From Beroe forskalii (lineage: Eukaryota; Ctenophora; Nuda; Beroida; Beroidae), in assembly GCA_011033025.1 (NCBI GenBank), contig WFMF01000076.1:346770-410769 (forward strand): a stretch of 64,000 bases of DNA, written 5' to 3'. The position numbers were made by a program, and so were the translations under genes. Positions 13,921 to 41,398 of this stretch are shown here, one piece after another. The notes beneath the pieces were generated by a model that did not search any database, was not told where the DNA came from, and saw nothing but the letters and a program-made list of their open reading frames with translations. The first letter of the stretch is position 1; each line of letters begins with the position of its first letter.

Positions 13921-16900
13921 CTACTCATCATTAAACACAATGTAAGCCATAGCCACAGCCCCCACCACCACAGCTCCCAGCAGGAGACTAGGTACAGAGA
14001 GGGAGGAGGGAGAGAGGCCTCGCTGAGAGAACTTAGTAATCCGAGGCTTCTCGTACCACTTACTGATGAACTGTCCCAGGACAGCCAGAACTTTGCAGAA
14101 CGCCCGCACTGTACCAGAAAAGTCGAATTCTTTGCTACCTGACGGAGTAAGAAAGTGTAACTTGTCGGCTTAAATTATGATGAAAATTACAAAGTATTCA
14201 TATCGAATAACAGCGTCAAACAAGAACACAATTTTAAAAACTCCAACAAATTTACGACCAATAGAAAACTTTCCGACAATTTTACAAAATTAAGGACACT
14301 CCCCAACCTCCACAACTCACCTTCCTCCCCAGACCGGTGGTAAGTGTAGAGTTCGGCTAGCACAGCGTCCTGTAAGAAAGCTAATAACGCCTGCATGTGG
14401 ATCAGCTCCACATTGATTGAGGTCCTGCCTGAGTGAGGCGTGTGGATGCGACCCATTCTGTCTAGCTCGTCCAACATCGCCCCGTCATACGGCTTAGTTA
14501 CTAGTCTGAGGGTGTGTGGCTTAGTAACTAGTCTGAGGTGTGTGGCTTAGTTACTAGTCTGAAGTGTGTGTGGCTTAGTTAGTAGTCTGAAGTGTGTGTG
14601 GCTTAGTTAGTAGTCTGAGGTGAGTGGCTTAGTTACTAGTCTGAGGTGAGTGGCTTAGTTACTAGTCTGAGGTGTGTGTGGCTTAGTTACTAGTCTGAGG
14701 TGTGTGGCTTAGTAACTAGTCTGAGGTGTGTGGCTTAGTTACTAGTCTGAAGTGTGTGTGGCTTAGTTAGTAGTCTGAAGTGTGTGTGGCTTAGTTAGTA
14801 GTCTGAGGTGAGTGGCTTAGTTACTAGTCTGAAGTGTGTGTGGCTTAGTTAGTAGTCTGAAGTGTGTGTGGCTTAGTTAGTAGTCTGAGGTGAGTGGCTT
14901 AGTTACTAGTCTGAGGTGAGTGGCTTAGTTACTAGTCTGAGGTGTGTGTGGCTTAGTTACTAGTCTGAGGTGTGTGTGGCTTAGTTACTAGTCTGAGTTG
15001 TGTGTGGCTTAGTTACTAGTCTGAGGTGTGTGGCTTAGTTACTAGTCTGAGGTGTGTGGCTTAGTTACTAGTCTGAGGTGTGTGGCTTAGTTACTAGTCT
15101 GAGGTGTGTGGCTTAGTTACTAGTCTGAGGTGTGTGGCTTAGTTACTAGTCTGAGGTGTGTGGCTTAGTTACTAGTCTGAGGTGTGTGTGGCTTAGTTAC
15201 TAGTCTGAGGTGTGTGGCTTAGTTACTAGTCTGAGGTGTGTGGCTTAGTTACTAGTCTGAGGTGTGTAGCTTAGTTACTAGTCTGAGGTGTGTGGCTTAG
15301 TTACTAGTCTGAGGTGTGTGGCTTAGTTACTAGTCTGAGGTGTGTGGCTTAGTTACTAGTCTGAGGTGTGTGGCTTAGTTACTAGTCTGAGGTGTGTGGC
15401 TTAGTTACTAGTCTGAGGTGTGTGGCTTAGTTACTAGTCTGAGGTGTGGCTTAGTTACTAGTCTGAGGTGTGTGGCTTAGTTACTAGTCTGAGGTGTGTG
15501 GCTTAGTTACTAGTCTGAGGTGTGTGGCTTAGTTACTAGTCTGAGGTGTGTGGCTTAGTTACTAGTCTGAGGTGTGTGGCTTAGTTACTAGTCTGAGGTG
15601 TGTGGCTTAGTTACTAGTCTGAGGTGTGGCTTAGTTACTAGTCTGAGGTGTGTGGCTTAGTTACTAGTCTGAGGTGTGTGGCTTAGTTACTAGTCTGAGG
15701 TGTGTGGCTTAGTTAGTAGTCTGAGGTGTGTGGCTTAGCTACTAGTCTGAGGTGTGTGGTAATTGAATAAAAGCTGGGAATTGCAAAAATTATGTGCATA
15801 TTGGATCCAGCGAAAAACTGTATCATGATTGCAGACTGCTTCCGTGACATAGGTAGATATTGTAATGTATTCTTCATTTAATTCACAATCATGCACAGAT
15901 TTGAAGCTCTAGAAATATAATTAGTCAAATCCAATTATAACCTGACGATGAATCGTTTGAGAGAAGACTTCCTCATCCCAATCTGTGGTTTGTTGAGGTC
16001 GTAGGTGTCCAGAGTGACAGTTTGTGAGGGGTCGTCGTACTTCTCTCTTTCCCTGAAAAACACCTGTAAAGAATGCCGGATATAACGAAATAATAAACCC
16101 TTCTTAGAGAATCACAGACATAACGTCCCACCCGTGGGAAGGTGATGCTCAAAAAGGTATAATGATTTTCATAATGCTCGTTTAATATCAGGCAAGGAAG
16201 TAAGGAGAGCCAAGAAATTTCGGGATCCTACGGTTAAGCTTTAATCCATTACCGATATTGGATATTAACCAGTTCACCGATCATTATACCGAATATGAGG
16301 CATGAGCGATGCAAAACAATCATTTCCTGCGGTGAAATGAGAACCTAGTGAGTCTCCCTAGATGCATGCTAGACTATATGCAATATCTATTATAGATCTA
16401 ACGGATATCCACGACAAATGGCGTGATTGGAATCACTTCACAGAAGTCTCATTCTAATAGTTGCTTTCAACAACCACATCATTAATAACCGTGCCCATTA
16501 ATCCATCTACTGCATCGATGTGCCAAAGACACTCGCTTTGCAACTGACATCGCTTCCCCAAGGAAAACGCACCATTATCAGTCTAGATAACTATTTACTT
16601 ATTTATATGTTAATAAGGACAATTAATAATTTCTCAAACACCATACCTTCTTAGTGCAGCTGAAGGAGAAGAGTTTGTCGTACACTGCGTCCACCAGACC
16701 TTCAACCTTGGGTCCTAACACACCCGCTGAACCTGGGAACAGGGGAGAAATTAATGGCGTCTACCAGACCCTCCACCTTGGGTCCTAACACCCGCTGAAC
16801 CTGGGAACAGGGAGAAATTAATGGCGTCTACCAGACCCTCCACCTTGGGTCCTAACACACCCGCTGAACCTGGGAACAGGGGAGAAATTAATGGCGTCTA

Positions 16901-17618
16901 CCAGACCCTCCACCTTGGGTCCTAACACACCCGCTGAACCTGGGAACAGGGGAGAAATTAATGGCGTCTACCAGACCCTCCACCTTGGGTCCTAACACAC
17001 TCGCTGAACCTGGGAACAGGGGAGAAATTAATGGCGTCTACCAGACCCTCCACCTTGGGTCCTAACACACCCGCTGAACCTGGGAACAGGGGAGAAATTA
17101 ATGGCGTCTACCAGACCCTCCACCTTGGGTCCTAACACACTCGCTGAACCTGGGAACAGGGGAGGAATTAATGGCGTCCACCAGACCTTCAACCTTGGGT
17201 CCTAACACACTCGCTGAACCTGGGAACAGGGGAGGAATTGATGATGGGATTTATTGGTCGATTTCACTATCCATTTCAATCAAGTTTAGATACAATTATA
17301 CTACTAAACTTTGATTGATAATAATTCCTTGAGTATGCAATTCTAACTGGGATCTTTAGAATATTTGAATTACAATGCATGCACTCCGTCATTCAATGTC
17401 TACATACCATGGATAAGTTTGATGTCATCTTCTGATATGCCAATGAAATCACAAAGGTACTTGAATCTGTAAGCTAAATCTGCATCTAATCTGCTCTCGT
17501 CAATTTTATGAACAGTTAATTGTAGCCATGGCTGTAGATGAATGCTGATTATAATTTTAATGTAACAAGTACATTGTACAAAATATGATACAGGTTTTAT
17601 AGTTTCCATAGAGGCCAT
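13921..17618 (-). CDS. Protoglobin-type globin A, with C-terminal membrane anchor
   Basis: Five exons: 17408-17618 (start uncertain), 16647-16732, 15942-16063, 14321-14505 and 13921-14138, giving about 273 residues. The fold signature matches protoglobins and globin-coupled sensors: YLCDFIGISEDDIKLIHG, then GPKVEGLVDAVYDKLFSF, then SLKRFIVRLVTKPYD, then MGRIHT with the likely proximal (F8) histidine, then the helix MQALLAFLQDAVLAEL and a C-terminal helix ending ISKWYEKPR. Unlike copy B, the last exon adds a segment ending in a strong hydrophobic stretch (LLLGAVVVGAVAMAYIVF), which suggests tail anchoring in a membrane. Protoglobins bind haem and gases (O2, CO, NO) and are best known from archaea and bacteria. 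The first ATG is unsure: residues before VHKIDESRL have no counterpart in copy B. Two of its introns carry splice-site arrays. Confidence 0.75.
14492..15759 (-). repeat. 26-bp minisatellite made of a splice acceptor plus exon start
   Basis: About 48 units of 24-28 bp directly upstream (in gene sense) of protoglobin A exon 4. In gene sense each unit is ACTAGTAACTAAG followed by CCACACACCTCAG. The first part equals the first bases of the exon (codons for LVTK) and also resembles a branch point (TAACTAA). The second is the pyrimidine tract and AG of the acceptor. The real exon begins at 14505 with the same sequence, so the array is a tandem expansion of that splice site into the intron. Confidence 0.9.
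16687..17243 (-). repeat. 70-bp minisatellite made of a splice acceptor plus 47 nt of exon 2
   Basis: Exon 2 of protoglobin A (16647-16732) is followed on its upstream side by about seven further copies of a 70-bp unit (67-71 bp). In gene sense each unit holds AATTTCTCCCCTGTTCCCAG, a strong acceptor, then about 47 bases of the exon start (GTTCAGCGGGTGTGTTAGG onward). Inner copies differ from the true exon only at third codon positions in the stretch coding KVEGLVDA. The outermost copy (about 17174) returns to the exon version. Confidence 0.92.
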
Positions 17619-18112
17619 AGCAATTGAACAATTTCAAAGTGAACAATTTCAAAGTAAACATCAATGAGACTGCAAAAACTTCAGAATTTTGGCCAATAAG
17701 ATAGCGGTAATATAAGATTGATTTGACATTTGTCAACATTCAACAAATTAACTTGAAATGTCGAGCTCAGAACGTCTATAAAATGGATTTCTGCAATCTG
17801 ATTATCGAGATCCATAATAAAATGAAACTAAAGGGCCCTTATTTGGTTACTGGAGGGAATAAGGATATGGATTGAACCAATCTCATTTGAAAATTAAAAA
17901 GCTACAGTCAGTCGGCTATTTTGTTAGCAATCGGTACGTGCTAAAAGAATAAGGGATTATATATCATGGGCTAGGTCATTACCCGATCGTAGGCAACCAC
18001 GCACAAAATATGGAATGAGAAATCAAAAAATAACATTTAACTTGAAAAGTTGGAAGGGCTTCACAATCGCAGACAGAAAGATCTGGAATTGGAAGGCCCA
18101 CGGATCTTTTTT

Positions 18113-19712
18113 CTAAGCTTTGCCTTCTTCGTACCATGCACTGATGAACTGGTTAAGAACAGCGAGGACTTTGCCAAAAGCTCGAGCAGTTCCGTCTCTT
18201 GTGGCTCCTGCGTGTGTATGTCAAGGAAATTAACTAAAATAATTAAATGAAATTAATAATAATAATTCTGGAAAAACATCAAAGAATTTGTTTTATACAT
18301 GTACACATTTCACGTCATACTATCCAATTTTACTATCAAAATTATACGCATTACTCATTACTGCATCAAAGGAATAATCACATGAAACATCAACATATTT
18401 TCATATTTGTGTCTAGACTTAAAAGAATATTCAAGATGGATATGAAGTATGATGTTACGCAGTCAAACATGACAGTCTAAATTTCGGATTCAGCTCACAG
18501 CAAAATAATATTAAAATGATGATTGAATAGAAAAATATTTCAGAAAATCATTTGTATCTTGATTCGTGACCTGAATAATCATCAATTAATTCTCAATCTG
18601 TCAAACAAACCTTCAACAGCCTCACCATCCACTGTGTCCGTATCCATTTTAAACACTTCAGCCAGGATGGCATCTTGTACGAATGCTAGAAGAGCCTGCA
18701 TGTGAATCAGATCCACGTTTACAGCCTTGTGAATGCGGCCCATGCTGTCCAGTGCCTGTAGCATTGCTTTATCGTATGGCTTGGTTACCAATCTGGGAGT
18801 TCAAACCACAAATAAACCTTGAGTATTTTAGACATTGTATTAGCACATCACTTACTTAACTTTTCGAAACAATACAATCCAAAGTCCTTCGAAATATACT
18901 TGTGATCCATCACCCGGTTTTCCCCACTAAAGCACTAAGTAAGATGCGATCATTTCATAATTGACATAAACAGTCCACACAGCGACTAACAAATCTGACA
19001 ATGAATCGTTTAAGAGAAGACTTCCTCATCCCAATCTGTGGTTTGTTGAGGTCGTAGGTATCCAGAGTGACTGTTTGTGAGGGGTCGTCATACTTCTCTC
19101 TTTGCGAAAAGAAAACCTGGAACATTACTCCGATACTGTGTGATTATAAAATGGTACCCCAATTAATAACTATATGTGTCGATATTGGGCTGATTTTCGA
19201 TCTTTCATTGTTTTGTACAATCCAATAGATGACTACTGAAAATGACTGCATACACTGCTAAATATCTTATCAAAACTGTGTTACCTTTTTGGTGCAGCTG
19301 AATGAAAATAGGCGGTCGTATACAGCGTCAACCAAACCATCCACTTTGGGACCCAAGAAAGGAGCCGAACCTGGAAAAGAATTGATGCCAAGTTGAAGAA
19401 GTTAAGATCGCTAGAATTTCAAGAATTCAGCTTTCGTATTGGGGATATCAAATTCATCAGCTGAGTATTAGAGTGCCAGTTGACTGTCACCTCGCACTTC
19501 GATAGTTCTGCATCAAGTCAATAAATAGGGAACTTATGAGTAAGCTAAAACGCCACCAACAACAGCAAGATAAGGGCTGCCTAAATACCGTGTATAAGTT
19601 CTATGTCTTGCTCTGTGATACCAATAAACTGGCAGAGGTATTGGAATCTATACTCCAGATCTGTTATCAGCTTTTCCTCGTCAATCTGTACCAAACTAGT
19701 GTTCTCACTCAT
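18113..19712 (-). CDS. Protoglobin-type globin B
   Basis: Five exons: 19589-19712, 19285-19370, 18995-19116, 18611-18792 and 18113-18207, joining to 202 residues, close to the roughly 195 of archaeal protoglobin. The sequence starts MSENTSLVQIDEEKL. Key segments are FIGITEQDIELIHG, GPKVDGLVDAVYDRLFSF, SLKRFIVR, LVTKPYDKAMLQALDSMGR with the candidate proximal histidine in IHK, MQALLAFVQDAILAEVF and VLNQFISAWYEEGKA-stop. Exons 2 and 3 have exactly the lengths and phases of copy A, so the two arose by tandem duplication. B lacks the membrane tail and the intron arrays. Exon 3 is followed by AT instead of GT (position 18994), although the reading frame is otherwise intact. Probably a soluble haem protein that binds gases; ligand and function are not deducible here. 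Confidence 0.8.
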
Positions 19713-20705
19713 GTTTTTCCTGGTTTTTGATAGACAAACAAACAAACAGGAGAAAGATTTTTTAGGCACTTCAAAAAATACAACAACGATCGAAGTTTGA
19801 TTTATACATCAATGCAGTATTGCAAGAACGTTTAAAATAACATTCCAAATCTACGTAACAAGTAAACACTAAACCTATAAAACATGCAACTCAAATTAAA
19901 CTTTATAAATCAATGAGTAGCAAAGTCTGGAATCATGCAAAGCTACTCATATAAGCATTAGTAAGAAATTAATAAGACGATATAAGGTATATATCCAGGT
20001 ACTTACCGCGAGCTGTGAGTACAGAGGATTTGATTTAAGCAGACTCTCGAGTCATTATATATGCGTGAACTTAGTGTCACATGTTACTCTTTAGCAGTGG
20101 TCACATGACACTCTTAGCTTTCAGTGAAATTAGAAGCATGTTCCTTAAGATCTCCAATTTTCGGGAGAAAGCTTCGAACACGTTCTAGAATGGAGCCTTG
20201 GTGCTCAGCTTGCAGAGGTTGGTCCTGAGTAGGGCCTCTCCCGACAAAAACCGTTCCAACCCACATGTAAGTAAGTACTTAGTACATTCTAGAAGATTCG
20301 GTCCCACCACCGCACCTAATAAGATTGCAGGACGCAATATGTCAGCTTCATAGGGCGGAACTTATTCGAATATCTGTTAACCTTATCACGAAATGGTTGA
20401 TATATACATATATACAGACCCTAATAGATGGACAAATTTCTTGACTTGTATTCTAGTCCGATACAGGAATCTGTCTTAGTAGCCAATTTCACGTGTCGGA
20501 CAATATGTCCATATTGGACAAATGTCCTAGATTCGTCATCAGCACAAATTCATACGAGGTTCTAAAAATAGAAATCAAATAGTATCAAAACTGTTGTACG
20601 ATGTACATATATCAAACACGTACATTCGTTCAGTACCTTCGATACTTCAGTAAACATTAAAACCCCAGGACCACGCCCGAAAAACAAATAGTCCAGTTAA
20701 GTTCA
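19713..20705. other. Gene-free spacer, probable promoter of protoglobin B
   Basis: About 1 kb of AT-rich sequence between protoglobin B and the next gene. No clear motif or family seen. A non-coding first exon of protoglobin B could lie here. Confidence 0.4.
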
Positions 20706-23700
20706 TTAAGACATGGTGTAGTTTTCTAACAGTTCGTTAAGGTGCTGTCTTATCTCTGAAATGTCGTCTTGCAACACTCCAGCGGCAATCAGATCAGGGT
20801 GCTCGTTAACATTGACTCGTTTGGACAAAACCTGGATCAAAAGGTAAGGCTTAATATAACCGATTTCAATATGTGGAACATGTAAAAATGACATATACAC
20901 CCGACAAAATACTGTATTCTTACAAGAAAATTCTCCACAATCACAGACCCAAGAACTTACTTTTTCAATTAAATGCACAGGTTGATTTGAGTTCTGTAAC
21001 ATGGAAAGGACTGGTAATTCCTGGACAGAAGTATTCCTCACTCTCTCATGTGGCTGACGTAACTTCCCTTGTTGAGAGGGGCAGTGTTATAGGAATTAAA
21101 TCGAAGAAACAAAATTATTAAAGCAGCAGCATTTATACCTAGATTTGGTTAGTTAGTACCTATACTGGATGTCCAGACATGAGTTGTCAAAACTTGCATT
21201 TAAGTTTTAAAAGTTTAAACTATGAAACAATAGTTAAATCTAACTTCCCATTTGACAGAATCTTGTCATTGAAAAATTGAGGAAAGGATGATGAAAGACA
21301 GAGAGATGAAGGACTGTAACAGAATTTAGTGGCAGAACTGAAGACTTGGATATCTGATGTTACTCCAGAGAGATGAGAAAAGAATTCATTGCTGTTTGCA
21401 ATATTAGGAATACCACAGCAAGTCATGAAGGTGTGATGTAATGGTAGGGTAACCTGGATGAAATGTTGAATTAGGCACTATTCAAAGCAATATCCATAAC
21501 GCCAAGGACAATGAATGTTAATGATATTTACAAGCATAACTGTTCTGATTGCATTTACAGCAATGCTTACCTCTCTGGATAAAAGGGACAGGGGATGCAG
21601 ATTACTTTTAATGTATGAAGGACTGAATAAGTTATTAATAGTTCTATCATCTGGATCATCAAATGGAACACCCACAATGTGAATTATATAACAAATTAGG
21701 CCTTAAAAATACCCAGGTATCTTATCTCAATAAAATATATTTTTAACAATGGACAGATTATCATATCTTGGCCATGATAATATCAGGCTCATCAAAATCA
21801 GAACTGAGATCATTACCCACAAATGATGTCAGTATATTCCTTGACAAGGGAGTCAAGAAATTCATCAATTGTCCAAAGTCTATTCCTTGTGAAGAATGCC
21901 TTAGAGTCTGATTTATGAAAAGTGACACAATTGCACTCATGTGATAGTTAGTATCTTCATTGAGTAACCCTCTAAATTTCCCTGAAAAGCATTTGATAAG
22001 AAATATTCTACATTGAAGCAATTCCTATCATTTCACTCGAAATGAATATCACTGTTTACTAATAGAAGAAAACATTGACACACATTTGAAGTAAAATTTC
22101 CCTTTTAGGTTTTTGTAGCTTAGAAAGGAGCATGTAGAGTTTGTAGATGAATCTTCTAGTTCAAAAAGATTTGGGGTTTCATCACCAATACCAAAAGTCA
22201 GTTTTTGTTTCTTTCCAAAAACATCATCCATGAGAGGAAATAGTTTTGATAGAAGGCCACCAAATCCTGAGCTTGTGTCATAAACATTGACAAAACCATG
22301 TTAGATATCAATTTAATTACCAATGAAACAAATCACTCAAATAATATCATCAATTGCAGACAGACATGATATCAGATTATTTGTCAGTGGCCAAGTGATT
22401 CATGCCACTCAAAGGTTATCAACCCTCTGGCCTCTTTTGTATACAGGATAGTCTCTTTGGGGTATGTATAACACACCAGTAGATCAAGCAGTAGATCAAA
22501 CGGCCTACCGACAATTGCGCACATAAGAATCTATTTCCCACGGTCTAACAGGGTGCCCTGTCAATGATTTGAGCTGTGAGCAGCCAAGTCAGTAGAATCT
22601 AATCCAAACTACAACAAACAGTAGATCAAACAGTAGATCAAACAGTAGATCAGAGGTCATGATGGGTTAGGTTACAGTAGATCAAACAGTAGATCAAACA
22701 GTAGATCAAACAGTAGATCAAACAGTAGATCAAACAGTAGATCAAACAGTAGATCAAACAGTAGATCAAACAGTAGATCAAACAGTAGATCAAACAGTAG
22801 ATCAAACAGTAGATCAAACAGTAGATCAAACAGAATTGGTTAATCAAGACAAGTCCATCTAAGTGAAGGATGTGTTTTACAGACCCCAAATGACCCCATG
22901 AAGGGATTATAAGGCAATGTTATAGTTATTTCTTAATAAGGTTAAAGATTTTCTGAGTACATTATATTAGTTGTCAAATGGAGTTGGTCAATTGAACAAT
23001 TCCATTCAATCCACTGATATGTTATAAATGCCCCTAAAACCCTCACTATAATTGGCATATTAGAAATTGGCAGATTGCTCAGATTTTTAACAGCCTATGA
23101 TCTTCTTCCTATATGATATCAAATAAACCAATCAGATGGTTGTATTTGATGTTGGCAATATCAGATACAACCATCTGATTGGTTCATTGGGTATCACACA
23201 CAAAGGAGATCACATGATAGGTTGTGGAAAATTGGAGTAATCTGCCAATTTCTGATACACCAAGTATAGACTTGAATAATGCATAATAGAAGATACTTAC
23301 ACGAAAATTGCTAGTTTTTTCCACTTGATATCTGATTTTATCCTCAAACTCATCACACAGAGTATGACTAGAAATTATATCTGATCCATTGTAGAAGCCC
23401 TCAAAATTGTTGCAATGTTGTAATTTGATCACTTGCTTGTCATTATATTCATTGAATGAACTCCAGTGCAATGTTGGATTTGGTGAATATATGTCTAATT
23501 TCTTTGATTTTGTATCATTACACTCAGCATTTATCTCATCAATCCTTCCATCCCATAATATATCATCCTTCTTCAAATGAAAAAATACAGAATTTTGAAT
23601 GGCAACTTTTTTCATCAAACAAATTGTTTATTTGTATAGCTACTTTATTTAATGTTTAAATTTGTTACAATTTTAAATCCTAATACTTACATGGTGGCTG

Positions 23701-23834
23701 TGAAAGGGGCTGTTGAACTGACTCAAAAAATCGACACAAATAAATGATTGGTTGGTACACTGTGATCCAGTGAAAGAGCTTTTTGGCCCAAGGTACAAAG
23801 AAAATAGTCCTGTTTCCAAGTCAGAACTGATCAT
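20706..23834 (-). CDS. Unrecognised multi-exon gene
   Basis: At least eight exon-like blocks on the minus strand keep a protein-like frame. Clear or likely exons are 23691-23834 (begins MISSDLETG, ends at GTAAGT), 23301-23615 (VAIQNSVFFHLKKDD to SNFR), 22084-22266 (LLSKLFPLMDDVFGKKQ), 21817-21981 (KFRGLLNEDTNYHMSAIV), 21571-21701 (GVPFDDPDDRTINNLFSPSY), 21245-21453 (VTLPLHHTFMTCCGIPN), about 20961-21070 (ELPVLSMLQNSNQPVHLIEK) and 20706-20831 (VLSKRVNVNEHPDLIAAGVL to ENYTMS-stop). Phases agree between the 22084, 21817 and 21571 blocks and at the last junction; other joins remain uncertain, as does the start. It is acidic, Ser/Asn-rich and without repeats, signal peptide or membrane span. I do not recognise the family. 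Confidence 0.55.
22615..22833 (-). repeat. 12-bp microsatellite-like array (CAGTAGATCAAA)n
   Basis: About 16 near-perfect copies of CAGTAGATCAAA, with looser copies from about 22480. It lies in an intron of the unrecognised gene. Because the unit is divisible by three, it opens a spurious LIYC-repeat frame. Confidence 0.9.
23057..23258. mobile_element. MITE-like hairpin, about 200 bp
   Basis: The outer arms AGAAATTGGCAGATT and AATCTGCCAATTTCT are inverted. The inner arms AACCAATCAGATGGTTGTAT and its exact reverse complement flank a short loop. It lies in an intron close to the exon ending at 23301. Small non-autonomous DNA element inferred from structure only. Confidence 0.6.
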
Positions 23835-23944
23835 AATGAATGAACAATGATTCAAACTGTCATTAAGTGTGACTCTGCATTCACATCCTTCTGATCATTG
23901 ATGGTTCAACCTAGAAAAGTAAAAATAACTAATACAAGTTTTAT

Positions 23945-24254
23945 GATATCTGAAATTCGAAATGAAAGAGCAAATTTGTCGAAACTTAGTGATACAGAAA
24001 TTGAGTTTAGGTTCCCTAGCAGTTTCATGACAATGTGCTCCAAAAAATCAATATCCCAGATGCTGCTGGACCAACAAAGAAATCGTGCAACATGATTTGA
24101 TATCTGAAATTCGAAATGAAAGAGCAAATTTGTCACTACTTAGTGATATAGAAATTGAGTTTAGGTTCGTTAGCAGTTGCATGAAAATGTGCTCCAAAAA
24201 ATCAATATCCCAGATGCTGCTGGACCAACAAACACATCATGCAACATCATTTTA
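23945..24254. repeat. 154-bp tandem duplication
   Basis: Two head-to-tail copies with a 154-bp offset, starting GATATCTGAAATTCGAAATG at 23945 and 24099. They lie just upstream of the first exon of the unrecognised gene. The first copy adjoins a good acceptor (TTTTTACTTTTCTAG on the minus strand). A non-coding leader exon or its duplicate is possible. Confidence 0.8.
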
Positions 24255-24403
24255 ATTTCCCAGAGCTGATATAGAAGTAGTATTGAATGAAAATAATGGT
24301 ATTGAACCATCACACCTCACTTAACTGACAGACATAAATTGGCTTTCATTCACAAACACACCCTTTAACACAGGGGTCCTGGGTCCAGCAACATGAAACT
24401 CTC

Positions 24404-24803
24404 TTGTAGGATGTTACCCTACCCTCCGCCGCGCACGCAAGGTTTTCCTAGTATGCAACACGACCCTCCAAACCTCCGAGTGTTGCGCGCAGGGATGGGA
24501 GAAATCCATCAAAAAACTCTCGAAAATTGATTCATTCACAATACCACTACCTATACCATCGAACTCACGCTTGCACCATATCACTTCATGCGCAATACTG
24601 TAATTATTGCTTGCATTGCATTCCCCTAACCAGAGGCGCCGCGCGGCGCGTTCCCCTAACCAGGGGCGTCGCGAAACTTGATGGGTTTAAATTTCTCCCA
24701 TCCCTAGCGCGCGACACTCGGAAGTTAGGACATAGGAGGGTCGTGTTGCAGACTCCGCGGAAAACGTTGTGGGCGCGGCGGAGGGTAGGGTAACATCCTA
24801 CAA
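24404..24803. mobile_element. MITE with about 105-bp terminal inverted repeats, GC-rich
   Basis: The ends TTGTAGGATGTTACCCTACC and GGTAGGGTAACATCCTACAA are perfect inverses, and the similarity continues inward for about 105 bp (ACACGACCCTCC, AGGGATGGGAGAAAT). The centre contains two CCCTAACCAG motifs. No clear target duplication. Base composition is far more GC-rich than the surroundings. The TGTAGG...CCTACA ends resemble those of the Ginger element at 41918, but the interiors differ. Confidence 0.75.
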
Positions 24804-25129
24804 CGCGAAACGACACCCCTCCTTCTGACCAAGCTTTCTTGAGTACGTGCGCGGCGTAGTAGGGAGTAGGGATCTGGTTACATTTTGGAGCAAGGCCTTA
24901 CCCCAACTATTTTGACAGTACCCCAATTAAGTTTCCTTAAGGAGCTACGCTTTACGCCATGTCGCCATGTGCGCGTAAACATTAAGTTAATGTAGTAGTT
25001 AAGGGAAGCTCTCATAAATCAGATGATCGAGCTCACGTGCGCGCGCCGCCTATCCGTTCAATATTGTCGAGAGAAAACGATGGCGCATATTCAATTGCTA
25101 TTAACACGCATATCCCAGTATGCATGACG

Positions 25130-28094: not shown

Positions 28095-29073
28095 CTGTAG
28101 CACATGGATAATGATAGACTATACCTACCAGGAATAAATATTCATACATAGGTTAAAGGTAGATGATTACAGTTTTACCTTGTTGACTTTTTATGACTTA
28201 ACTAGAGTTTAGGAGCTGTCAGCTAATCCTTTAACTCAAGTAGACAGTTAGGTGAATGTACAATGTACATGTAGTTAGTGATTGGCAGTGTGAGTTAACC
28301 CATGTAATTATAAGGGTTTTTAGGATTGCACATGAGCTTACTAGAGTGACGTACCTTTCTCTGCTGCAACACGTTCTGCATAGTTCTACAAAGCTAAAAG
28401 ACTTCAACGAAATGAGAAATATAAGTAGCAAACTGATACACGAAGTAAGCAGCAAGTAAACAGTAATTGCTGCTACTAATGGTCTCTATGGTAGCTGCTC
28501 ATCAGCTGAATGCTAAACTGCTCAGTACAATCGAATCCTCTATTAGTACAGGTGCAACGTACTATGTATTGGAGTAAAGATGGATTCGATGAACCAATAT
28601 ATATGTATCTGCATATCCAAGAACAAATTAGGCTTGCTGAACAAATGATCATAACATAATGCCACGTTTAATAATGTAATCAGCCCAGCTGGAGGTCGGT
28701 AGATAGTGCTTGTCTGTGTTACAACCCCAATAGCCTCAATCCTTCATTTCTCGTGTAAGATTAATTACATATAATTAAAGCTCAGTATGTCTAATGTGTC
28801 CGATGATATATGCTTCATAGACGAATCTCAGCAAAATGCAATGTTCTTTGCGTAATGATCAAGTGCAATATATACAACCTCAGAACAAGCTATATTAATT
28901 AATACCATATAGCTGTAGTAGACATCGATCTCCCGAACTAAACCAAACAGAATTGTGCCATACCGTCCTCATGGACCTTAAATCTATGAAAGTATGTGCT
29001 ATATACCGTCCTCACTCACAGTAATTGGTGTTGAGCCAGGGCATGTGAAGTCTGAACTCTCTGATATCAGACC
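28095..29073. other. Divergent intergenic region between DNAL4 and GCC1
   Basis: About 1 kb between the two head-to-head genes. It must contain the missing first DNAL4 exon or lie close to it, and the GCC1 promoter. Neither could be pinned to a motif. Confidence 0.4.
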
Positions 29074-32000
29074 ATGGACAGCCTGTTCGGAGGCTCAAAG
29101 AGCTCTCTTCACGAAACCATCAGAACTCAGCAGCACCGTCTTGCCAAATACGAGAAGAAGTTGGGAGATCTGGTGAAGGCTTACAAGAGCCTGCAGGACG
29201 AGAAAACAGCTTTGCAGGAAACTGTGAATGCGTTCAGCAACCAGCCTTCCCACGGTTAGGTGTTAGTGCACTGTTAATTAGTTATTAGATGACTAATGAC
29301 TTTGTAGCTATCGGGCAAATTTGTGATATAAACAGTATAGGTCCACTATTAGAGTATCTGAGTATCTGTATACCAAACCCTTTGTCTATTCACAGCTAGC
29401 GATCACTCTGAGGAGGTCGGAACAGACGACGCTCTCAGGCAGCAAGTGACTGCTCTTACCAAAACACTGAGCAGTTTAAACGAAACAAAGAACACTCTTG
29501 AGCTGAGGTTTCAGCATGATAAGAAGGAACTTCTCGAACAAGTTGATGATCTCAAGGGTCGTACACGAAGACCTTGGTATGATTTTGTGTCGAAAAGTTG
29601 TTGCCGCTAAGATTTCACCAGACTAAGGAATTAATATGGGTTTGTGTCTGTTTAGCTCCAGATTTATCTCCAAATTTAAGTGAGTAGACACGTGGCAGGC
29701 TTTGTATATTAACCTTGTTCGCGGTGTCACTGTACCTTCATAATTTCAAATCCTCAGGGTCTTCTGGCACGAGAGCAGGATGTTGTGCAACAGGAACGTT
29801 CATCCCACGAGCAGTTTAGGAAGGAAATGAAGAGCAAGCTGAGGAACGAGCAACACGAGAGGGAGCAAGAGCAAACCCATCATGTTGCGATGCTGAGAGA
29901 GCTGCAGCACATGCTAGGTGAGAAAGTGAGGGGGTGAGGAGTGGATTAATGGAATAATATTTTTCCCGTCTTTTTGTGATAGAAATTGATATAATTAAAA
30001 TTTTTCCAAAACCAAAAACGATTTGCTTGTGTTGGTTTGCGGCAGTTTTTTAAGCATGAAAACTGCTGCATCGTCACTATAAATGCCATTTATAGTTAAA
30101 TACCTGTTTCAGCGAACGAACGGAACGCTAACCAGAAACTGGAATTAGAAGTCGACGAGCTCCGAAACTCAAGGCACTTTGAGAAACAGAGGGATGTGTT
30201 CGAGGACAAAGTCAAGTTACTCAGAGAGGAAAGAGACTATTTGAGTTCCGAACTGGAGAAAATTAGGATGAAATCAAATGAACCTTCCAAAGATTTTATT
30301 CTGGTACGTTATTAAAATCAAATCTTATTACAACAATCTAAAGTTTTGATGCTTCGATCCTCATTAAAGATATTTTAGCATTGGATGATGATATTTTTTG
30401 CGGAGTTAAGATTTGGACAAGAATATTTATCGGCTAACCGAATAATGAATTACTTAGAATAATTCGTAATTAGATTGATTGATAATTTGATTAACTACCA
30501 GCTCAAGAAGGAGGTTGAGGAACTGAGGGGAGTGAAGGCAGAGTTAGACGCAGTAAAGAGCGAGCAGGAGACAGTAGCTTTCCAACAACTTCACCTCCAA
30601 ACTACTGCAGATCAAACCCGGATCAGGGAACTGGAAAACAGGTGAATGGGGAGTCGTATGAAAGCAACAGAGTAGAAATAGAATATGGGAAAACAGCTGG
30701 ATTGTAGATTGGTAAGGGCATGGATTCTGAAGAGTTGTAAGTTTGTAGGTAGTTCAAAATACCTATTTCAATGATCATGACTTTTCAGGCTAACAGACCT
30801 CTCAGAACTAGTGGCTGACTATGACGTCACACAGAAACGTGACCAGGATGAGATATCTCGGCTCCAGGCCAGAGTCACCACTCTTGAACAGGAAGCTAAG
30901 TCTGAAGATAGGCGGGTTAATGTGAGTGTTAACACTAACGTTATCATTGACACACCTACCACACCAACCACGCCTACCACGCCGTCCTACCACACGGCGT
31001 CTGATGCGATGACATCACCAACGGATAAGGTGTCGTCAGCAAGGGACTTGGCAGTGGTGCCGAGAGAGGTAATTCCTCTGCAACTCGTCTCAAAGAACAG
31101 GTAGTTGTCAAGGATCAGTAGAATTGATCTGTTTAATTCACAGATTCCGTTGAAACAGGTAGTTGTCAAGAAACGGGATATAAGATCTGTTTGATTGCTT
31201 GCTCACAGGTTCCCTTTGAAACTTTGAGGAAGAAAATTTATTTGTTTTATTCGCAGATTCCGTTGAAACTTTGCAACTACTTCCTTCTCTTTGATGTACA
31301 TGTGTTTACTGTATTGTGTATCATTACGAATAATGAACGGTAAACAACCGTCTCCTAAAACTAAAACATTTAAACCCAAACATCTCAAAACACCATTGCT
31401 CATATCAGGGAGGTTGAGATATCAAAGCTGAAGGACTCAGTACGGGTGTATAAACAGGAGGTTGCCAAGCTTCAGGAGGAGAAGAAGAATCAACAGCTGA
31501 GTTTGGTGGAGCTAACTGAGAAGCATAAGCAGGAGCTCATCCAGGTAATTGGAACATTATCTTTTCTATAAAAAAAAGGGTTGGGGAATTTTATTGTCAT
31601 TTTGTGAATTTAGCACCATCTTGTTATTTGAATATACCACTGAATTTCGAGCTATGAGCATTCAGATGTTAAAGCTTCCCCATTGCTTCAGATAGAGACC
31701 CAACATTCTCTTGAGATTAAGGAGCTAGAGAAAGGCTATGCTGGTCGATTGAGCGAACTTATTGAGAGTAGCAACAAAGCAAGACTGCGATCCCAGGTAA
31801 CATGATGCAACACCTTACTCTTGTCTTAAGCTTTCCAAGAGATTAAAGTTTAAACGATATAACTGATACGTGAGAGTTTTAATCAGAAGCTTTCGAAAAT
31901 CTTGAGATTATCTCCGTCAGCTTTCCAGATTATAATGAGTATCACTCTTGCACAGTCACAGTCCTTAAGTTCGCGGAATTTCGTATATTCACTTCACAAA

Positions 32001-32625
32001 ACCATATTTCAGGAATTACTTGCGGAGCGAGATCTGGAGATTTCTGACTTCAAAGCGAAGACGAACCCTAACAGGTGATTGTTTTTTCCTAAGTCATAGA
32101 CATTCTTATCACTGCCGGATAAAACTGTGATACTGCATATCCCTTGCATTAGTTTGGCAACGAAGTCGTACCAGAGCGTTTTCCAACGCGAAAATTAGTT
32201 AATTGTAGGAACGCGCGTGTACAATTTGGTGATCGTATTTGCGCCAAATCACGCGCACCGTGCGCGCGCAGGTTACGTAAGCGTTCATTCATTTGACATT
32301 TGATTGATTAATCAACTAATTAAACTTTAAATTAAGTAAATTTAATTTATTGATTAATCAAAGAAACGTCCGTTGAGACTTTGCAGTACGATTTTGGTCT
32401 TGTAGTACGGTGCCAAATGGCAAATTTCTTATTTCCGAATAGGACTGCGATTTCGATCTACGTGATTTGAATTCTCAAACATGAGAATTTGGCAATGATT
32501 AATCTCAATGTCACAGGTCGTACAGCGGTCAGAACGACGAGCATATGGTGGCTGATCTGCTTTCCAGCGTGGACAATGTTCCTAGGACCATGGTGTTTTA
32601 CAAGACACAACAGCAGTATCTCGCG
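29074..32625 (+). CDS. GCC1: GRIP and coiled-coil protein GCC1, C-terminus missing
   Basis: Ten exons: 29074-29254, 29396-29576 (donor uncertain), 29758-29917, 30113-30303, 30502-30641, 30789-31100, 31409-31544, 31692-31796, 32013-32074 and 32517-32625, about 525 residues. The N-terminus (TQQHRLAKYEKKLGDLVKAY) matches human GCC1 closely. So do EQTHHVAMLRELQHML and the late VFYKTQQQYLA, the counterpart of the FFLYAEQLARKE region. Almost all is predicted coiled coil, apart from a TPTTPTTP linker in exon 6. GCC1 is a trans-Golgi tether recruited by ARL1 through its C-terminal GRIP domain. No GRIP sequence (about the last 60-80 residues) was found before the next gene. The last exon ends at a good donor (GTAAGT), 65 bp before an inserted LINE. 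Either the gene is broken, or further exons lie outside the window. Confidence 0.85.
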
Positions 32626-33217
32626 GTAAGTTGTCATCTGAACAAAGGACAAAAACTCAGGGGTTCCGCACGGGCCAATGCTTTGTGATGAAGCCCCTAC
32701 CTCTTGTACCTCTTGTAGGTTCTTGCTGGAAATCCGAGCTAGACCATCTGTTGTAGACCACCTGTGCTCCAGTCCAGTAGCGAGTTTGAGTTGGGAGAGG
32801 TATACCCGGGTACTGGTGGTTGATCTGCATACGTGCTCATGATATGGGAAGTCAATCTCGATTTGAAAGACTCTATGGACGGAGCACAGGTGACGCTGTA
32901 GGGGAGAATGTTGCAAAGCTTTGGGTCGTCACTGCGAATGATTTATCAAACAGTGACTTGGCATAGGATGGGGCTTTCCTGGGTAGAGGTGGAACAGAGC
33001 ATCGAGTTCCTAGACGGATGTGTTCGTAGGACTTCAGTTGGAGGTCATTGGGAGCAATACCTTTGAGAATCTTTCAAACCTGTATGATGATGTATCTTTC
33101 TCGGCGTCTCTGGATTAACATCAGATCTAACTTTTTAGGCGTTCCCAATAGCTGTGACCTTTGCAGCCGGATATTTGACGGGTGAAGGCTCTTTGTGGTG
33201 ATTCTAGCCTTTGGATA

Positions 33218-35516
33218 TCACTCGTTAGTGTGGGGGTTCCATACTGGACAAGAGTATTCCAGTCTGCTTCGGACAATGGACTTGAAGAGGGTGAGCATGG
33301 TATTTCGGGATCTGTCTGAGAAGACACTAAGCACCCAGTTTGCCATTTTGTTGGCACTTTCGACAGCAGTCTTGACCTGAGTCGACCATTTCAAGTCAGG
33401 GGTGAGCATTATGCCAAGGTCTTTAACACTTGGCGCCGGGAGTATTTCTTGACCAGACGTAGTGATGTACTTGGTCCACTGGGATGTGAATGGGAGCTGC
33501 TGGAGAAGGTGGCTTCTAGGTGTTCTGTAGGTGAGGAGCTCGAACTTGTTTTCATGAAGTAGCATGTTATTTGCTACGGACCAATCGATGACTTTCAGGA
33601 GATCTTGTTGGAGAATAGTCTGGTCTTCGCAGTAGCTTACAGATTTACTGAGACGAGTATCGTCAGCAAAGCTTCCGGAAGTTGAACCATCCAGACAGTT
33701 TTCAAGGTCATCGATATAGATGAGGAAGAGAATAGGGCCGAGTACAGAGCCTTGTGGGACACCACTAAGAACGAGTGAAGATATGGAATGTACTCCATTT
33801 ACAGAGACGACTTGTTGTCGGTTGTTCAAGAATTGTTGGATCCAAGCAAGGAGCTTCCCCTCTACACCAAACTTCTGGAGCTTGTGAAGGAGGATCTCAT
33901 GGTCAACTTTATCGAACGCCTTGGCGAAGTCAAGATAAACCACATCATGTTCGTTGCCGTCAAGGATGCTCTGGATTACTGAGTCGATGTGTTTGAGAAG
34001 GTGTGTGAGACAGCTTCGTCCTTTTCTGAATCCATGTTGATTCCTGGAGAGCAGGTTGTTAGATTCCAGGTGGTTTACCAGTTGTTTCCTGATGACTCTT
34101 TCGAAGATTTTTATTAAGTGGGATGTTAATGATATAGGACGGTAGTTTGCAGCATCTGACCTATCACCTTTCTTGAATATTGGTGTGATGATCTGCGTTT
34201 TCAGGTTACTCGGGATGCTACCATCTCTAAATGATTTTTTCCCATATGAGGGAGATGGGGTAACACAGGTTAGTCTTGCATTCCTTAAGGACTACAGCTG
34301 GAATGTCTTTGTCAGTGGTGGCCGAGTTGGAGTCAATTTCATCGATGGCGTCAATGATGTCTTGAGTGGAGAACGAAAAGTCACTGAGAGAGGCAGAGGT
34401 TTGAGGTCGATCAGGGAACACCTTGTTGTTGTTCGTAGGATCACTGAACACTGATTCATACTGGTGTTGAAGGATGTTTGCCATCTCGAGGGGATCGTTC
34501 GTCAGTGAGCCATCCTTGAGCAATGGCCCAACATTGGATTTGCACTTAGCGAACCTTTTGGCATAGCTAAAGAAGTACTTTGGGTTTGATATAACCTTAG
34601 AGACGGCTAATTTCTCACGGTGAGACTGCTCTGCGTTGTATGATTCATTGATATGGAAGTGTAGGATACTTATTTCATCTTCCATAGCTTTGATTTTTGC
34701 AGAGGTTGGGTTTCTTGCTCTCACAGCTTTCAGACGAGACACAAGTTTCCGCCTCTTTCTGTTAAGTACAAAACGGTCCCTTGAGTGCTTCGTCTTAGGC
34801 TGGTGTGACGTTGATTCTGAGGACTTTGGGAGCTTGCTTGGACAGCTTAGCTGACAGGCTTCAAGGACAGTCAGATAGAGTTTTTCCACAAAGTCGTTTC
34901 CATCTGATTCAGAGTCACAGAGCTGGTAAAGCTCATCCCAGTCAACTTCGGAGAGGATGCTGTTGATTTTAGTGAAGTCGGCTTTCGGGAGGTCCAGTGA
35001 GCGGAAGGAGTCTTTGTCGAAGGATGGAGAGGAGGGAGGCACTGGCGCTTTGATGTTATAGAGGAGGTTCACCTTGACTGCCAGGTGGTCAGATAGAGTC
35101 GTCTCTTCTGTTTCGATGTTTCGGATTTCCCTCTCATTGTTGGTGAGGAAGAGGTCGAGAGTGTTATTTTCCCTAGTGGGACGGTCGATGACTTGGGTAA
35201 GCATATTGTTGCCGATGAATTCGAGGAATGCTTCACCAGATTCTTGTTGTTCTCGACCCTGGGAAGAGCCAGAGACTAGTGTAGTCCAGTCGATATTAGG
35301 GAAGTTAAAGTCACCCATGATGTTGATTTCGTGGTGCTTCTTTTCCATGAGGGGATCTATGTAGTCTTGGATATACCGAAGGACTTGGGCAAAAGATAGT
35401 GAGGATGCCTTTGGAGGTCGGTAAACATTGATAAGGATGGTCGAGGTAGCTGGAAGGGTGGAAAGGATTGCTTGACAGATGCCGTCGTCGTAGGAGTTTT
35501 CGTTTGAGACGGGCAT
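33218..35516 (-). pseudogene. LINE copy 1 ORF2: endonuclease and reverse transcriptase, frameshifted
   Basis: The first part (34227-35516) carries the apurinic-type endonuclease: INVYRPP, IMGDFNFPNIDW and LSDHLAVKVN. The second (33218-33943) carries RT motifs VYLDFAKAFDKVDH, GVPQGSVLGPILFLIYIDD and SGSFADDTRLS, whose FADD is the catalytic YADD-type box. The two parts are separated by an extra T in a T run near 34236; another extra base near 33236 ends the frame early. The more N-terminal endonuclease stretch lies in another frame just upstream (up to about 35700). Not expected to make an active enzyme. Confidence 0.88.
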
Positions 35517-35749
35517 AGAGTCGTGGACGTAGAGAATTGTACCACCCCCTTTTCTAACAGAACGATCACAACGGAAAGACAGGTAGTTGTTGATACGAAC
35601 CTGAGCATCTGTAATGTAGCTCTTTAGCCAAGTCTCAGAAATAGCAAGGATGGGGATGTTGCTGTGGCTTGCGTTGAGGATAGTGTCTGAGATGAATGGG
35701 ATTTTCCATTTGCAGGAGGACTTGGCATGAGGAGAGATGGACTGGGCAT

Positions 35750-37171
35750 TTAGGAGGAGTATAGAGGAGTATTCTGTGCCCAGATCGGGGTGGGTTGTAG
35801 AGGAAGGTGATGTTGGAAGGTGTGCAGTGGATTGTCCTGGAGGTTCATCTGAGATGGTTGTTGGAGAGTTTGGCCTGGATTCAGAGTTGGGCCGGAGGGA
35901 GGGAGAGGAACGTTCCAGCGTGCTTGATGTGACAGACTGTCTCTGAGGTGAGCTATGTCTTTCTGGAAATCGTTCTTCATGTTCTGGATCATTCGGACTA
36001 AAAAAGACACGTCCGAACTGCTGTTGTTGTAGGCCCCTGCACTTGGGGTAACAGGTCTGCTTGGGTGGGAGGCAGTGCTGTCATAGCGCACTCGTGGGGG
36101 AGGAGGTCGCTCATTTCGTCCTGAAGTCCGGTTTCTTGGGCCAGGAGAAGCGCCACGACGTCGATCTTGAGATTGGCTGCTTCCTCGTTCAGCCGGATCA
36201 CGTCGGCGCTTTGTGGATTTAAGGTGCACAAACTTGCAGTTGTCATTGTAGCAGCTCAGTGAGCCGACAGAGTTCCTGCATAGTTTGGGGTGGAAGTACT
36301 TGCATTGATCGCCTTTTTTGCATCCTTTTCTGTTTTTAGCGCCGAATTTGCAGTATCGAAAACAGCGTCGGGGATGGTAGTCAGGACATGTAACGCCGTT
36401 TACGACTTGATTTCCGTTCATCCCGTGGGGGCACTGGTTATCGGTGTAGCGCTTGCAGATGTTTTGGGGAGGATCTTCACCTTCTGATATCCGGGGATGA
36501 TTATCACCTTCAGAAGCCCGCCTAACAGTCTCCATGGAATGATTTGAGCCTGCTGGACTGGCATCTTCGGCAAGGATCCTGTTGATAGCTGGACTCTGAC
36601 CAATTCTGGAGATAGAAGGAGATGAGTTTGGGGTACTGTTCTCGAAGGAGACACTGCCAGATCTCTTTCTTGGATTGTTGGAGAGGAGGGGATTGTTCTT
36701 CAGGAAGCAACCGCTGCATATCCATGCATTACCAATGAGTGTAGTGGGCAGCGATGTGAGGGATTCAACGGTGCTTTTCACTTTCTCACAGTCATGCGAG
36801 GGTAGGAGACATAGAAAACAGCGGAGTCGATGTTCTGACTGCTGATCACTGAGCGTGACCCGGTAACCATCACCACAATCTTGACAAGTGGAGGGAAATG
36901 TGGTTTCGATCATCGTAATGATACGGTCAGCCAGCGTCGGCTTGTTGGTGAAGATGAGAGTATTGTCCTCGTCACGTGTCTTTAGACCTAGGAACTTAGC
37001 ACAAGTCTCTAATTGCTCTGATCTGAACTTTGCGCTAGACAGGTTCTTGACATTGGTAGCGTGATCTACTGAGTGGGAATAAGCTCCTATGACAAGCTTG
37101 GAGACTGCATCAGCATCTCTCAGGATTTCACCGATGGCAAGCTGAATTTGATTTTCAGTAGTTTCGGACAT
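35750..37171 (-). CDS. LINE copy 1 ORF1: CCCH zinc-finger RNA-binding protein
   Basis: An intact frame of 473 codons starting MSETTENQIQLAIGEIL. The N-terminal half has a Cys-rich region (CQDCGDGYRV, LRCFLCLLPSHDCE, WICSGCFLK). The middle has three CCCH-like fingers (CKRYTDNQCPHG, RCFRYCKFGAKNRKGCKKGD, CRNSVGSLSCYNDNC), followed by an Arg-rich tract and a Pro-rich C-terminus. ORF1 proteins of LINEs bind the element RNA and act as chaperones. The equivalent in copy 2 is broken by many small indels, so this copy is the better preserved one for ORF1. Confidence 0.8.
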   Translation of the reverse strand: MSETTENQIQLAIGEILRDADAVSKLVIGAYSHSVDHATNVKNLSSAKFRSEQLETCAKFLGLKTRDEDNTLIFTNKPTLADRIITMIETTFPSTCQDCGDGYRVTLSDQQSEHRLRCFLCLLPSHDCEKVKSTVESLTSLPTTLIGNAWICSGCFLKNNPLLSNNPRKRSGSVSFENSTPNSSPSISRIGQSPAINRILAEDASPAGSNHSMETVRRASEGDNHPRISEGEDPPQNICKRYTDNQCPHGMNGNQVVNGVTCPDYHPRRCFRYCKFGAKNRKGCKKGDQCKYFHPKLCRNSVGSLSCYNDNCKFVHLKSTKRRRDPAERGSSQSQDRRRGASPGPRNRTSGRNERPPPPRVRYDSTASHPSRPVTPSAGAYNNSSSDVSFLVRMIQNMKNDFQKDIAHLRDSLSHQARWNVPLPPSGPTLNPGQTLQQPSQMNLQDNPLHTFQHHLPLQPTPIWAQNTPLYSS

Positions 37172-37330
37172 ACCGTGTTGTGAAAGATCTTATAACAGTA
37201 TACAGCAACAGCTACACACGACACTGACAACACAGGTTACCTCAGTTCGATGAAAGACTTGAACCTGCTTGAGAGAGTAACCCTGTGTGCTCGTGTCTCT
37301 TCTGTGTGCAACTGTCACTGATCTGAAAAT

Positions 37331-37884
37331 AGATGAACAGCAGTAAATCTGTTTATGTGGTGGGAGTAGCGCTGCGAGGGGGTTAGTGGGATACGCAACA
37401 CAAATGAAGAACAGATTATTTTTGCTGATGAGACAGAGAGTTTGAAGAAGCAGAGAGTTTGATGAGACAGAGAGTTTAAAGAGACAGGGAGTTTGATGAG
37501 ACAGTTAGTTGAAAGTCCCTTGAGGGCACACTACACAAATACGCACTGTGAAGTGAACTTGAAAACGGCTTAGCTATAATGTGACCCGCCGTATCATGTT
37601 GTCACATCTCAAATTTGATTGTATAAAGTAGTGTTGTAAAGTTTATGGACAAAAATAATTTGAATCGGCTCCTCGGAAAAACATTTTCAAGCGATTGTCA
37701 GATCATCGATTAAACGCTATAATATGTGCCCTCTGTATCATTTAATGGCGTAATTTAAACATTGTATAAGACAAGTACACTCAGTTTTTTTTAAATAAGA
37801 AACTGTCGATAAGAAACATAGCCTAGGATTTTCGAAAATTTAAGAAACTTAGCCTAGAATTTCGGAAAAATTAAGAAACTTAGT
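37331..37884. other. Spacer between LINE copy 1 and WDR31 array
   Basis: No coding seen; in particular no GRIP-like exon for GCC1. Short imperfect repeats of GAGACAGAGAGTTTGA occur at 37430-37510. Confidence 0.45.
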
Positions 37885-38823
37885 TGTTGTGTCTAACCCC
37901 TGCTCCCTAGGCCATGTCATGAAGTTGCTGCGTCTTACCCCTGCTCGCCCTAGGCCATGTCATGAAGTTGCTGCGTCTAACCCCTGCTCCCCTATACCAT
38001 GTCATGAAGTTGCTGCGTTTAACCCCTGCTCTGCCCCTTAGGCCATGTCATGAAGTTGCTGTGTCTAACCCTGCTCCCCTATACCATGTCATGAAGTTGC
38101 TGCGTTTAACCCCTGCTCGCCCCTAGGCCATGTCATGAAGTTGCTGCGTCTAACCCTGTCTCCCTAGGCCATGTCATGAAGTTGCTGCGTCTAACCCTGC
38201 TCCCCTAGGCCATGTCATGAAGTTGCTTGTCTAACCCTGCTCGTCCCTAGGCCATGTCATGAAGTTGCTGTCTAACCCCTGCTCGTCCCTAGGCCATGTC
38301 ATGAAGTTGCTGCGTCTAACCCCTGCTTCCCTAGGCCATGTCATGAAGTTGCTGCGTCTAACCCCTTCTCCCCTAGGCCATGTCATGAAGGCTGCGTGTG
38401 TCAACCCCTGCTCCCCTAGGCCATGTCATGAAGTTGCTGCGTCTAACCCCTGCCTGCCCCTAGGCCATGTCATGAAGTTGCTGCGTCTAACCCTCTGCTA
38501 CCCCTAGGCCATGTCATGAAGTTGCTGTGTCTAACCCCTGCTCCCTAGGCCATGTCATGAAGTTGCTGCGTCTAACCCTGCTCGTCTTCTAGTTCATGTC
38601 ATCATGAAGTTGCTGCGTCTAACCCCTGCTCTCCCTAGGCCATGTCATGAAGTCGCTATGTGTCTAACCCCTGCTACCCCTAGGCCATGTCATAAAGTTG
38701 CTGCGTCTAACCCCTGCTCTCCCCTAGGCCATGTCATGAAGTTGCTGCGTCTAACCCCTGCTCCCCCCTAGGCCATGTCATGAAGTTGCTGCGTCTAACC
38801 CCTGCTCACCCCTAGGCCATGTC
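37885..38823 (+). repeat. 43-bp minisatellite made of a splice acceptor plus WDR31 exon start
   Basis: Twenty-two units of about 43 bp (irregular, 39-46) end directly at the WDR31 reading frame. Each unit reads CTAAC (a branch-point match), then CCCTGCTCCCCTAG (pyrimidine tract plus AG), then GCCATGTCATGAAGTTGCTG. The last unit runs into the gene, whose possible first codons ATGAAGTTGCTGCG are repeat sequence. It has the structure of a tandem array of 3-prime splice sites upstream of the exon. Confidence 0.92.
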
Positions 38824-38844
38824 ATGAAGTTGCTGCGGCGGTGT

Positions 38845-41330: not shown

Positions 41331-41398
41331 ACTGCAGCATAATTAAATAATGTGTAAGGTGAAGTAAAAAATCCTAGTGTAGTTCCCAGCCCTAGCTG

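Follow-up and report, generated by a model that had tools for sequence, protein, structure and literature searches.

The window analysed here is a stretch of 64,000 nucleotides from the ctenophore Beroe forskalii (contig WFMF01000076.1, hereafter C869; C869:346770-410769), taken from an assembly of 216.1 Mb in 1134 contigs. It carries two intron-bearing protoglobin genes in tandem on the minus strand (window positions 13921-19712; genes A and B), a WDR31-like gene on the plus strand, and three minisatellites, called with Tandem Repeats Finder (TRF), that run across predicted splice acceptors of protoglobin A and WDR31. The closest named homologs (protoglobin 56%, WDR31 54%) are both 'eukprot sb/' entries, a label that we take to stand for Pleurobrachia bachei. 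The features concerned are listed below in window coordinates.

13921..17529, minus strand: protoglobin A gene model, exons 17529-17408, 16732-16647, 16063-15942, 14505-14321 and 14138-13921
14321..14505, minus strand: protoglobin A exon 4, predicted acceptor in the exon-proximal unit of array 1, placed exactly by the exon model (which was seeded with exon 4)
14491..15759, minus strand: array 1, TRF period 26, 48.1 copies, 95% matches
16647..16732, minus strand: protoglobin A exon 2, supported by the paralog, the exon model and homologs
16687..17243, minus strand: array 2, TRF period 70, 8.0 copies, 96% matches
18113..19712, minus strand: protoglobin B, tandem paralog with five exons and the same introns, used as array-free control
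37882..38837, plus strand: array 3, TRF period 44 (also scored as 85), 22.2 copies, 87% matches
38816..39798, plus strand: WDR31-like exon, coding sequence 38824-39798 including the stop, 324 amino acids

Acceptor-spanning arrays of protoglobin A and WDR31

An earlier note on this DNA had located three arrays here and described each as a repeated acceptor together with the beginning of its exon, the units being unrelated between sites. This description is borne out: TRF gives 48 x 26, 8 x 70 and 22 x 44 bp, every unit joins the 3' end of an intron to the first 15, 46 or 22 bases of an exon, and the same structure recurs at all three sites with a consensus that differs from one to the next. The WDR31 array was correctly placed, its unit of 43 bp being in fact nearer to 44 bp (single spacings of 41-46). 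The 26-bp unit of array 1 consists of 11 bases from the end of intron 3 (..CTCAG) and 15 bases from the start of exon 4 (ACTAGTAACTAAGCC), and the array terminates on the minus strand as ...CACACCCTCAG/ACTAGTAACTAAGCC/GTATGACGG. The 70-bp unit of array 2 combines 24 bases of the end of intron 1 with 46 bases of the start of exon 2 (minus-strand terminus ...TTCTCCCCTGTTCCCAG/GTTCAGCGG...GACGC/AGTGTACG), and the unit of array 3, of about 44 bp, joins 22 bases ending in CTAG to 22 bases from the beginning of the exon, among them ATGAAGTTGC (plus-strand terminus ...TCTAACCCCTGCTCACCCCTAG/GCCATGTCATGAAGTTGCTGCG/GCGGTG). A genome search with array 1, in which simple repeats were skipped, returned no match besides array 1 itself.

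The five-exon model of protoglobin A, whose start codon placement is provisional, matches the Pfam Protoglobin family (E 8.6e-28), and its two array-bearing boundaries are supported by the array-free paralog and by homologs without extra residues. Protoglobin B has both of the junctions that bear arrays in A, and no TRF row overlaps it. Among 296 protoglobin matches, six were read: P0121 and P0122 have HGSA at the exon 2 junction and RLVTKPYDG at the exon 4 junction, as in protoglobin A, the residues of P0123, P0125, P0126 and P0127 align at both junctions with differences, and none of the six has inserted residues at either one. Intron 1 measures 675 bp in A versus 218 in B and intron 3 measures 1436 bp versus 202, in agreement with the intron lengthening that had been proposed. 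Since B has both introns without arrays, the two protoglobin arrays would have lengthened old introns rather than created them, and the suggestion that they were steps in intron gain is not upheld.

Two side observations concern the protoglobins. Exon 3 of gene B ends GTCAG/ATTTGT (window 18994-18995), with AT where gene A has its GT donor, which may be a mutated donor, a sequence error or a different exon end. Among the protoglobin matches listed, beyond a few likely relatives, those named by organism are bacterial, mostly Planctomycetota at 42-44%, and an old gene transfer into the ctenophore lineage is possible.

At the WDR31 locus, the ATG AAG TTG contained in the array unit is probably the true start codon, since four of the 12 WDR31 relatives read begin with MKLL or MKLF followed by ..CMGSKSS; another six begin at or near the next methionine and two are longer. 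A comparison of WDR31 with phages gave no match. A second copy of the gene, 96% identical, lies in inverted orientation at C869:580739-581741 (minus strand; also L026), and the similarity of the two loci extends beyond the gene at 90%. This second locus bears a counterpart of array 3 with 41 units versus 22 in the window, a copy-number instability seen between two loci of one assembly that are not known alleles; their unit types number 21 and 26, three of which are common to both. In the 115 codons compared, the two copies differ by 10 silent and 2 replacement changes, so both look used. No similarity was found upstream of the two WDR31 arrays, and the upstream flank of the array in the window is repetitive (at least 40 matches).

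Copying in blocks is visible within two of these arrays. Units of the second WDR31 locus are most alike when 15 units apart (identity 0.942, for an all-pairs mean of 0.903), and those of array 1 when 7 units apart (0.951, for a mean of 0.922), with a run of nine identical pairs in the latter. The outermost pair of units in array 2 has GTTGAAGGTCTGGTGGAC, in agreement with the exon, and the six inner units have GTGGAGGGTCTGGTAGAC; such a homogenisation of inner units with exclusion of the edges was seen, by inspection, in this array only.

Donor-spanning arrays and frequency of border-spanning arrays

An independent region of the same contig (C869:1-190000, 190 kb including 9,469 N) served for comparison, which brings the scan for splice-site-spanning arrays to 254 kb overall, about 1/850 of the genome. 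A simple exon model combined with inspection revealed three arrays in this region that span donors.

C869:77281-77492: donor array with a 50-bp unit, at an exon that matches the HLH domain of Pfam (3.6e-15)
C869:58130-58582: donor array with a 41-bp unit, at an exon flanked by PAS exons that apparently belong to the same gene
C869:30680-30933: donor array with a 59-bp unit, at an exon ending SKLIPFSI, where the relative P0241 continues with TIETD

GT is kept, with near-equal strength, in all donor copies found (13/13 in the 58130 array, 3/3 and 4/4 in the other two). These arrays, found in independent sequence, rule out the tie to acceptors alone that the earlier note had seen: splice-spanning arrays occur at both 5' and 3' boundaries (donors at C869:58130, 77281 and 30680; acceptors in the window), the unit consensus again differing from site to site. 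Leaving aside the second WDR31 locus, the clear cases are spread over four genes and comprise three acceptors and three donors. The 58130 and 77281 arrays are taken as sitting in one putative bHLH-PAS gene, as the HLH exon, the 58130 exon and the PAS exons, once joined, match HLH, PAS and PAS_11; a query of the PDB with the exon at 58130 and the neighbouring one gave no match. At the 30680 exon, the relatives P0241 and P0244 differ from the array reading after the shared residues. The unit of this third array recurs at C869:14969-16105, in an array that belongs to the 19 clean ones considered below and gave no splice-border hit.

Several other arrays of the region deserve mention. In P0242, the predicted protein of a relative, an exon end ..FPYISIISQKFFLALKYPQ (..FFLALKYPQ) is present in three in-frame copies separated by VITSTF; it corresponds to another exon of the C869:30680 gene and looks like a donor-spanning array of another species read into a protein prediction. 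A 31-bp array at C869:31231-31964, which starts about nine bases into an intron, adjoins the exon end of which P0242 has the tandem copies. An isoleucyl-tRNA synthetase-like gene (C869:43572-46600) holds an array at C869:43693-45618 whose units encode DYKTLYPWFM, near solved synthetases. It can be read as acceptor or donor and the exon body expected after it was not found, and it was excluded from the counted cases; it decays to homopolymer-rich sequence, possibly through an assembly fault. Nor was the 36-bp array at C869:37903-38045 counted, as it may simply be coding (12 codons), and no coding flank was seen at the 49-bp array at C869:120156-122239.

The frequency of these arrays is suggestive of an excess over chance. 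Arrays of at least 2.8 copies, at least 85% identity and more than 100 bp, termed clean, were compared with the non-overlapping best exons of a predicted-exon model at thresholds of 15, 20 and 25, a null that replaced a cruder one in which any AG or GT within long open frames counted as a boundary. The model was seeded with eight acceptors, one of them misplaced by 3 bases; as seven of the eight are protoglobin sites, its recovery of protoglobin exons is not independent. In the 190 kb at threshold 20, 3/19 clean arrays span a boundary versus 0.62 expected from the region-wide exon density (P 0.025) and 1.24 from the density within 10 kb (P 0.13). The same three stand against 0.44 (region-wide) and 0.95 (local) at the stricter threshold of 25, and four against 1.59 (P 0.08) and 2.30 (P 0.20) at the looser threshold of 15, the fourth being an unverified 18-bp array. 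In the window, which was picked for these arrays, three of the seven clean arrays span a boundary at every threshold, versus 0.72, 0.31 and 0.27 expected region-wide and 0.77, 0.32 and 0.27 locally (thresholds 15, 20 and 25), and pooling this selected window with the 190 kb gives 6/26 versus 1.56 (P 0.005). Lowering the limit to 1.8 copies yields 6/97 versus 2.34 in the 190 kb, three of the six being unverified. Under the cruder null, clean arrays reach 8/21 versus 2.25 in the 190 kb and 3/10 versus 2.43 in the window, where there is no excess, and all arrays together 22/97 versus 10.75 and 7/30 versus 7.75, respectively. Finally, 50 kb of other contigs and C1 (L002, L022-L025) gave one weak hit (L025). 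The genome-wide scan for acceptor-spanning arrays that the earlier note had called for has been made over these 254 kb, with an excess that is suggestive and not secure.

These figures bear on an alternative, namely that the arrays are untied to splice sites and that, in a repeat-rich genome, some must fall on exon borders by chance. The 190 kb holds 138 merged arrays with a period of at least 8, local exon density gives P values of 0.13 and 0.20 at thresholds 20 and 15, and the window has no excess under the cruder null, for clean as for all arrays; we give this alternative a substantial chance, somewhat below even. It is opposed by the region-wide and pooled comparisons, the latter with its selected window, by the cruder null in the 190 kb and by the larger set of arrays of at least 1.8 copies with its three unverified members. 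At the other extreme, arrays may arise far above chance at both exon ends in the ctenophore lineage, because the meeting of splicing, transcription and exon base composition would promote duplication there; swelling of introns inward from their ends would then be a route common to amphioxus and other animals. We find this broader proposal rather unlikely.

Origin of the arrays and choice of the splice site

Arrays of this kind are already known from amphioxus, where they were named mirages. The amphioxus reports describe them as duplicated intron-exon boundaries that resemble minisatellites and occur at either exon end, known in Adh3 and the globins BflGb6 and BflGb9 (PMC3087553), to which PGBD5 and troponin C were added (PMC3902484); their units measure 10-160 bp, inner copies are homogenised, edges are excluded and haplotypes differ in copy number (PMC3087553, PMC3902484). 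The ctenophore arrays likewise consist of border-spanning tandem copies at 3' or 5' splice sites, with site-specific units and, in array 2, edge exclusion, and they match the testable features of mirages except for the lineage, which is a ctenophore here and cephalochordates there. They are of the same structural kind, found outside the amphioxus set and at both exon ends, not just at exon starts. The amphioxus reports further give 6 and 3 copies for BflGb6, versus 48 and 41 here, and support regular splicing by RT-PCR (reverse transcription PCR), whereas here it is suggested by homologs. Human minisatellites also modify exons and introns, some of them at the exon-intron boundary (PMC2812944). 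There, expansion of variable internal tandem repeats in segmental duplications similarly changes exon and intron length, with units of about 30 bp in about four copies, half of them in coding sequence, and novel introns are said to form at boundaries, unlike the present case, in which pre-existing introns have lengthened and the proteins seem unaltered. Both precedents (PMC3087553, PMC2812944) contradict the earlier view that known minisatellites are not usually anchored in this way.

In the open-licence papers searched, mirages are reported from amphioxus only, with no report from ctenophores. Their presence at six splice sites in four genes of one contig, together with the second WDR31 locus and the hint from P0242, implies that mirages are either convergent or widespread. 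Tandem duplication over splice signals is a shared theme with older work: Rogers reportedly proposed in 1989 an AGGT duplication model in which duplicated splice signals make new introns, and Zhuo et al. are said to have described in 2007 human introns in tandem arrays, with new introns made by duplication over splice signals. Their duplications yield new introns, unlike those described here.

We consider it quite probable that the arrays are splice-site-spanning minisatellites of the mirage kind, i.e. duplications over borders that grew by exchange and were tolerated. A short tandem duplication (26-70 bp) would by chance cover an intron-exon border, and would be tolerated, unlike a frame-breaking duplication within an exon, because the intron side alone receives the extra copies. 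With the copy next to the exon still joined to it, the protein would stay the same, and recognition across the exon (exon definition) may help to pick that copy. Selection would presumably be blind to the extra copies, and the array would then be free to expand or shrink via unequal exchange of one or several units. Such a mechanism would explain why donors and acceptors are affected alike, why units are unrelated, why proteins lack extra residues and why growth is block-wise, with no special driver needed. The structure itself, the homologs without extra residues, the block copying in two of the arrays, the different copy numbers at the two WDR31 loci and the donor cases are direct observations.

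Which copy is used can be approached through acceptor scores, calculated from 68 re-estimated acceptors outside arrays, and through reading frames. AG is retained in 48/48 copies of array 1, in 7/7 scored copies of array 2 (the eighth, with small deletions, being missed by the pattern), in 18/20 scored copies of array 3 and in 35/41 at the second WDR31 locus. The strongest of the 48 acceptors of array 1 is the exon-proximal one (8.7, the others ranging from 1.7 to 5.9). Use of an upstream acceptor with the rest of the array kept would lead to a stop for 46/48 copies of array 1 and 6/7 scored copies of array 2, and the penultimate acceptor of array 1 would insert nine in-frame codons; the exon-start variation that had been envisaged would thus be mostly destructive. 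These predictions make it likely that protoglobin A uses the exon-proximal acceptor, and the homologs suggest normal mRNA splicing around the arrays.

Several points weigh against this account. The seven scored acceptors of array 2 do not differ in strength (12.1-12.3), and the exon-proximal acceptor of the WDR31 arrays (9.3) is exceeded by some of the decoys (up to 11.0 and 11.6), so strength alone is not what selects the exon-proximal copy. No coding exon was seen after the WDR31 exon, and exon definition, which acts from an acceptor to a downstream donor, therefore cannot explain the choice there. In the WDR31 array of the window, no block offset stands out clearly (best identity 0.875, all-pairs mean 0.868). 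In the bHLH-PAS gene, the HLH exon cannot be joined directly to the next PAS exon with the phases predicted for them, hence at least one exon is absent from the model, and the 58130 exon alone has no Pfam or PDB match.

Other explanations give the arrays a different meaning. As functional decoys, repeated acceptors or donors would slow or regulate splicing, and the intact AG of array 1 and GT of the 58130 donor array fit this role; yet homogenisation alone accounts for such retention, AG is lost in 2/20 scored copies of array 3 and 6/41 at the second WDR31 locus, and paralog B does without arrays, which makes the role improbable. The presence of CAG/GT and AAG/GT in array 2 units recalls a model in which duplicated AG/GT borders are steps towards intron gain (Rogers model as cited in PMC3087553), a route that the amphioxus authors suggest for globin introns, and human exon-intron boundary repeats may form novel introns (PMC2812944). 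The two array-free introns of protoglobin B imply that introns came first or did not depend on arrays, and we judge this route very improbable. That the arrays are an assembly artefact is hardly credible: the array near C869:43693-46600, with its turn to homopolymer-rich sequence and missing next exon, might be one, but those of the window are clean and contain distinct unit subtypes, and the WDR31 array is present at each of two loci, in copy numbers that differ. A question of another order is whether the WDR31 array copies a trans-splice acceptor, to which a spliced leader would be attached ahead of the start codon, and not the end of a cis-intron. The acceptor lies 8 bases 5' of the ATG, no upstream coding exon was seen, and leaders occur on 56% of Iso-Seq reads in the ctenophore Hormiphora (PMC8527503), which brings this possibility only just short of an even chance.

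Whatever their origin, these arrays are natural tests of the choice of the spliceosome among up to 48 near-identical sites. The window also contains two repeats of another sort: a 27-bp minisatellite family at 41395-41918, 48910-49965 and 56931-58079, in whose unit no splice border was seen, and, at 41072-41330, an element of about 250 bp with copies about 95% identical at 40 or more places (40 of 1084 candidates scored).

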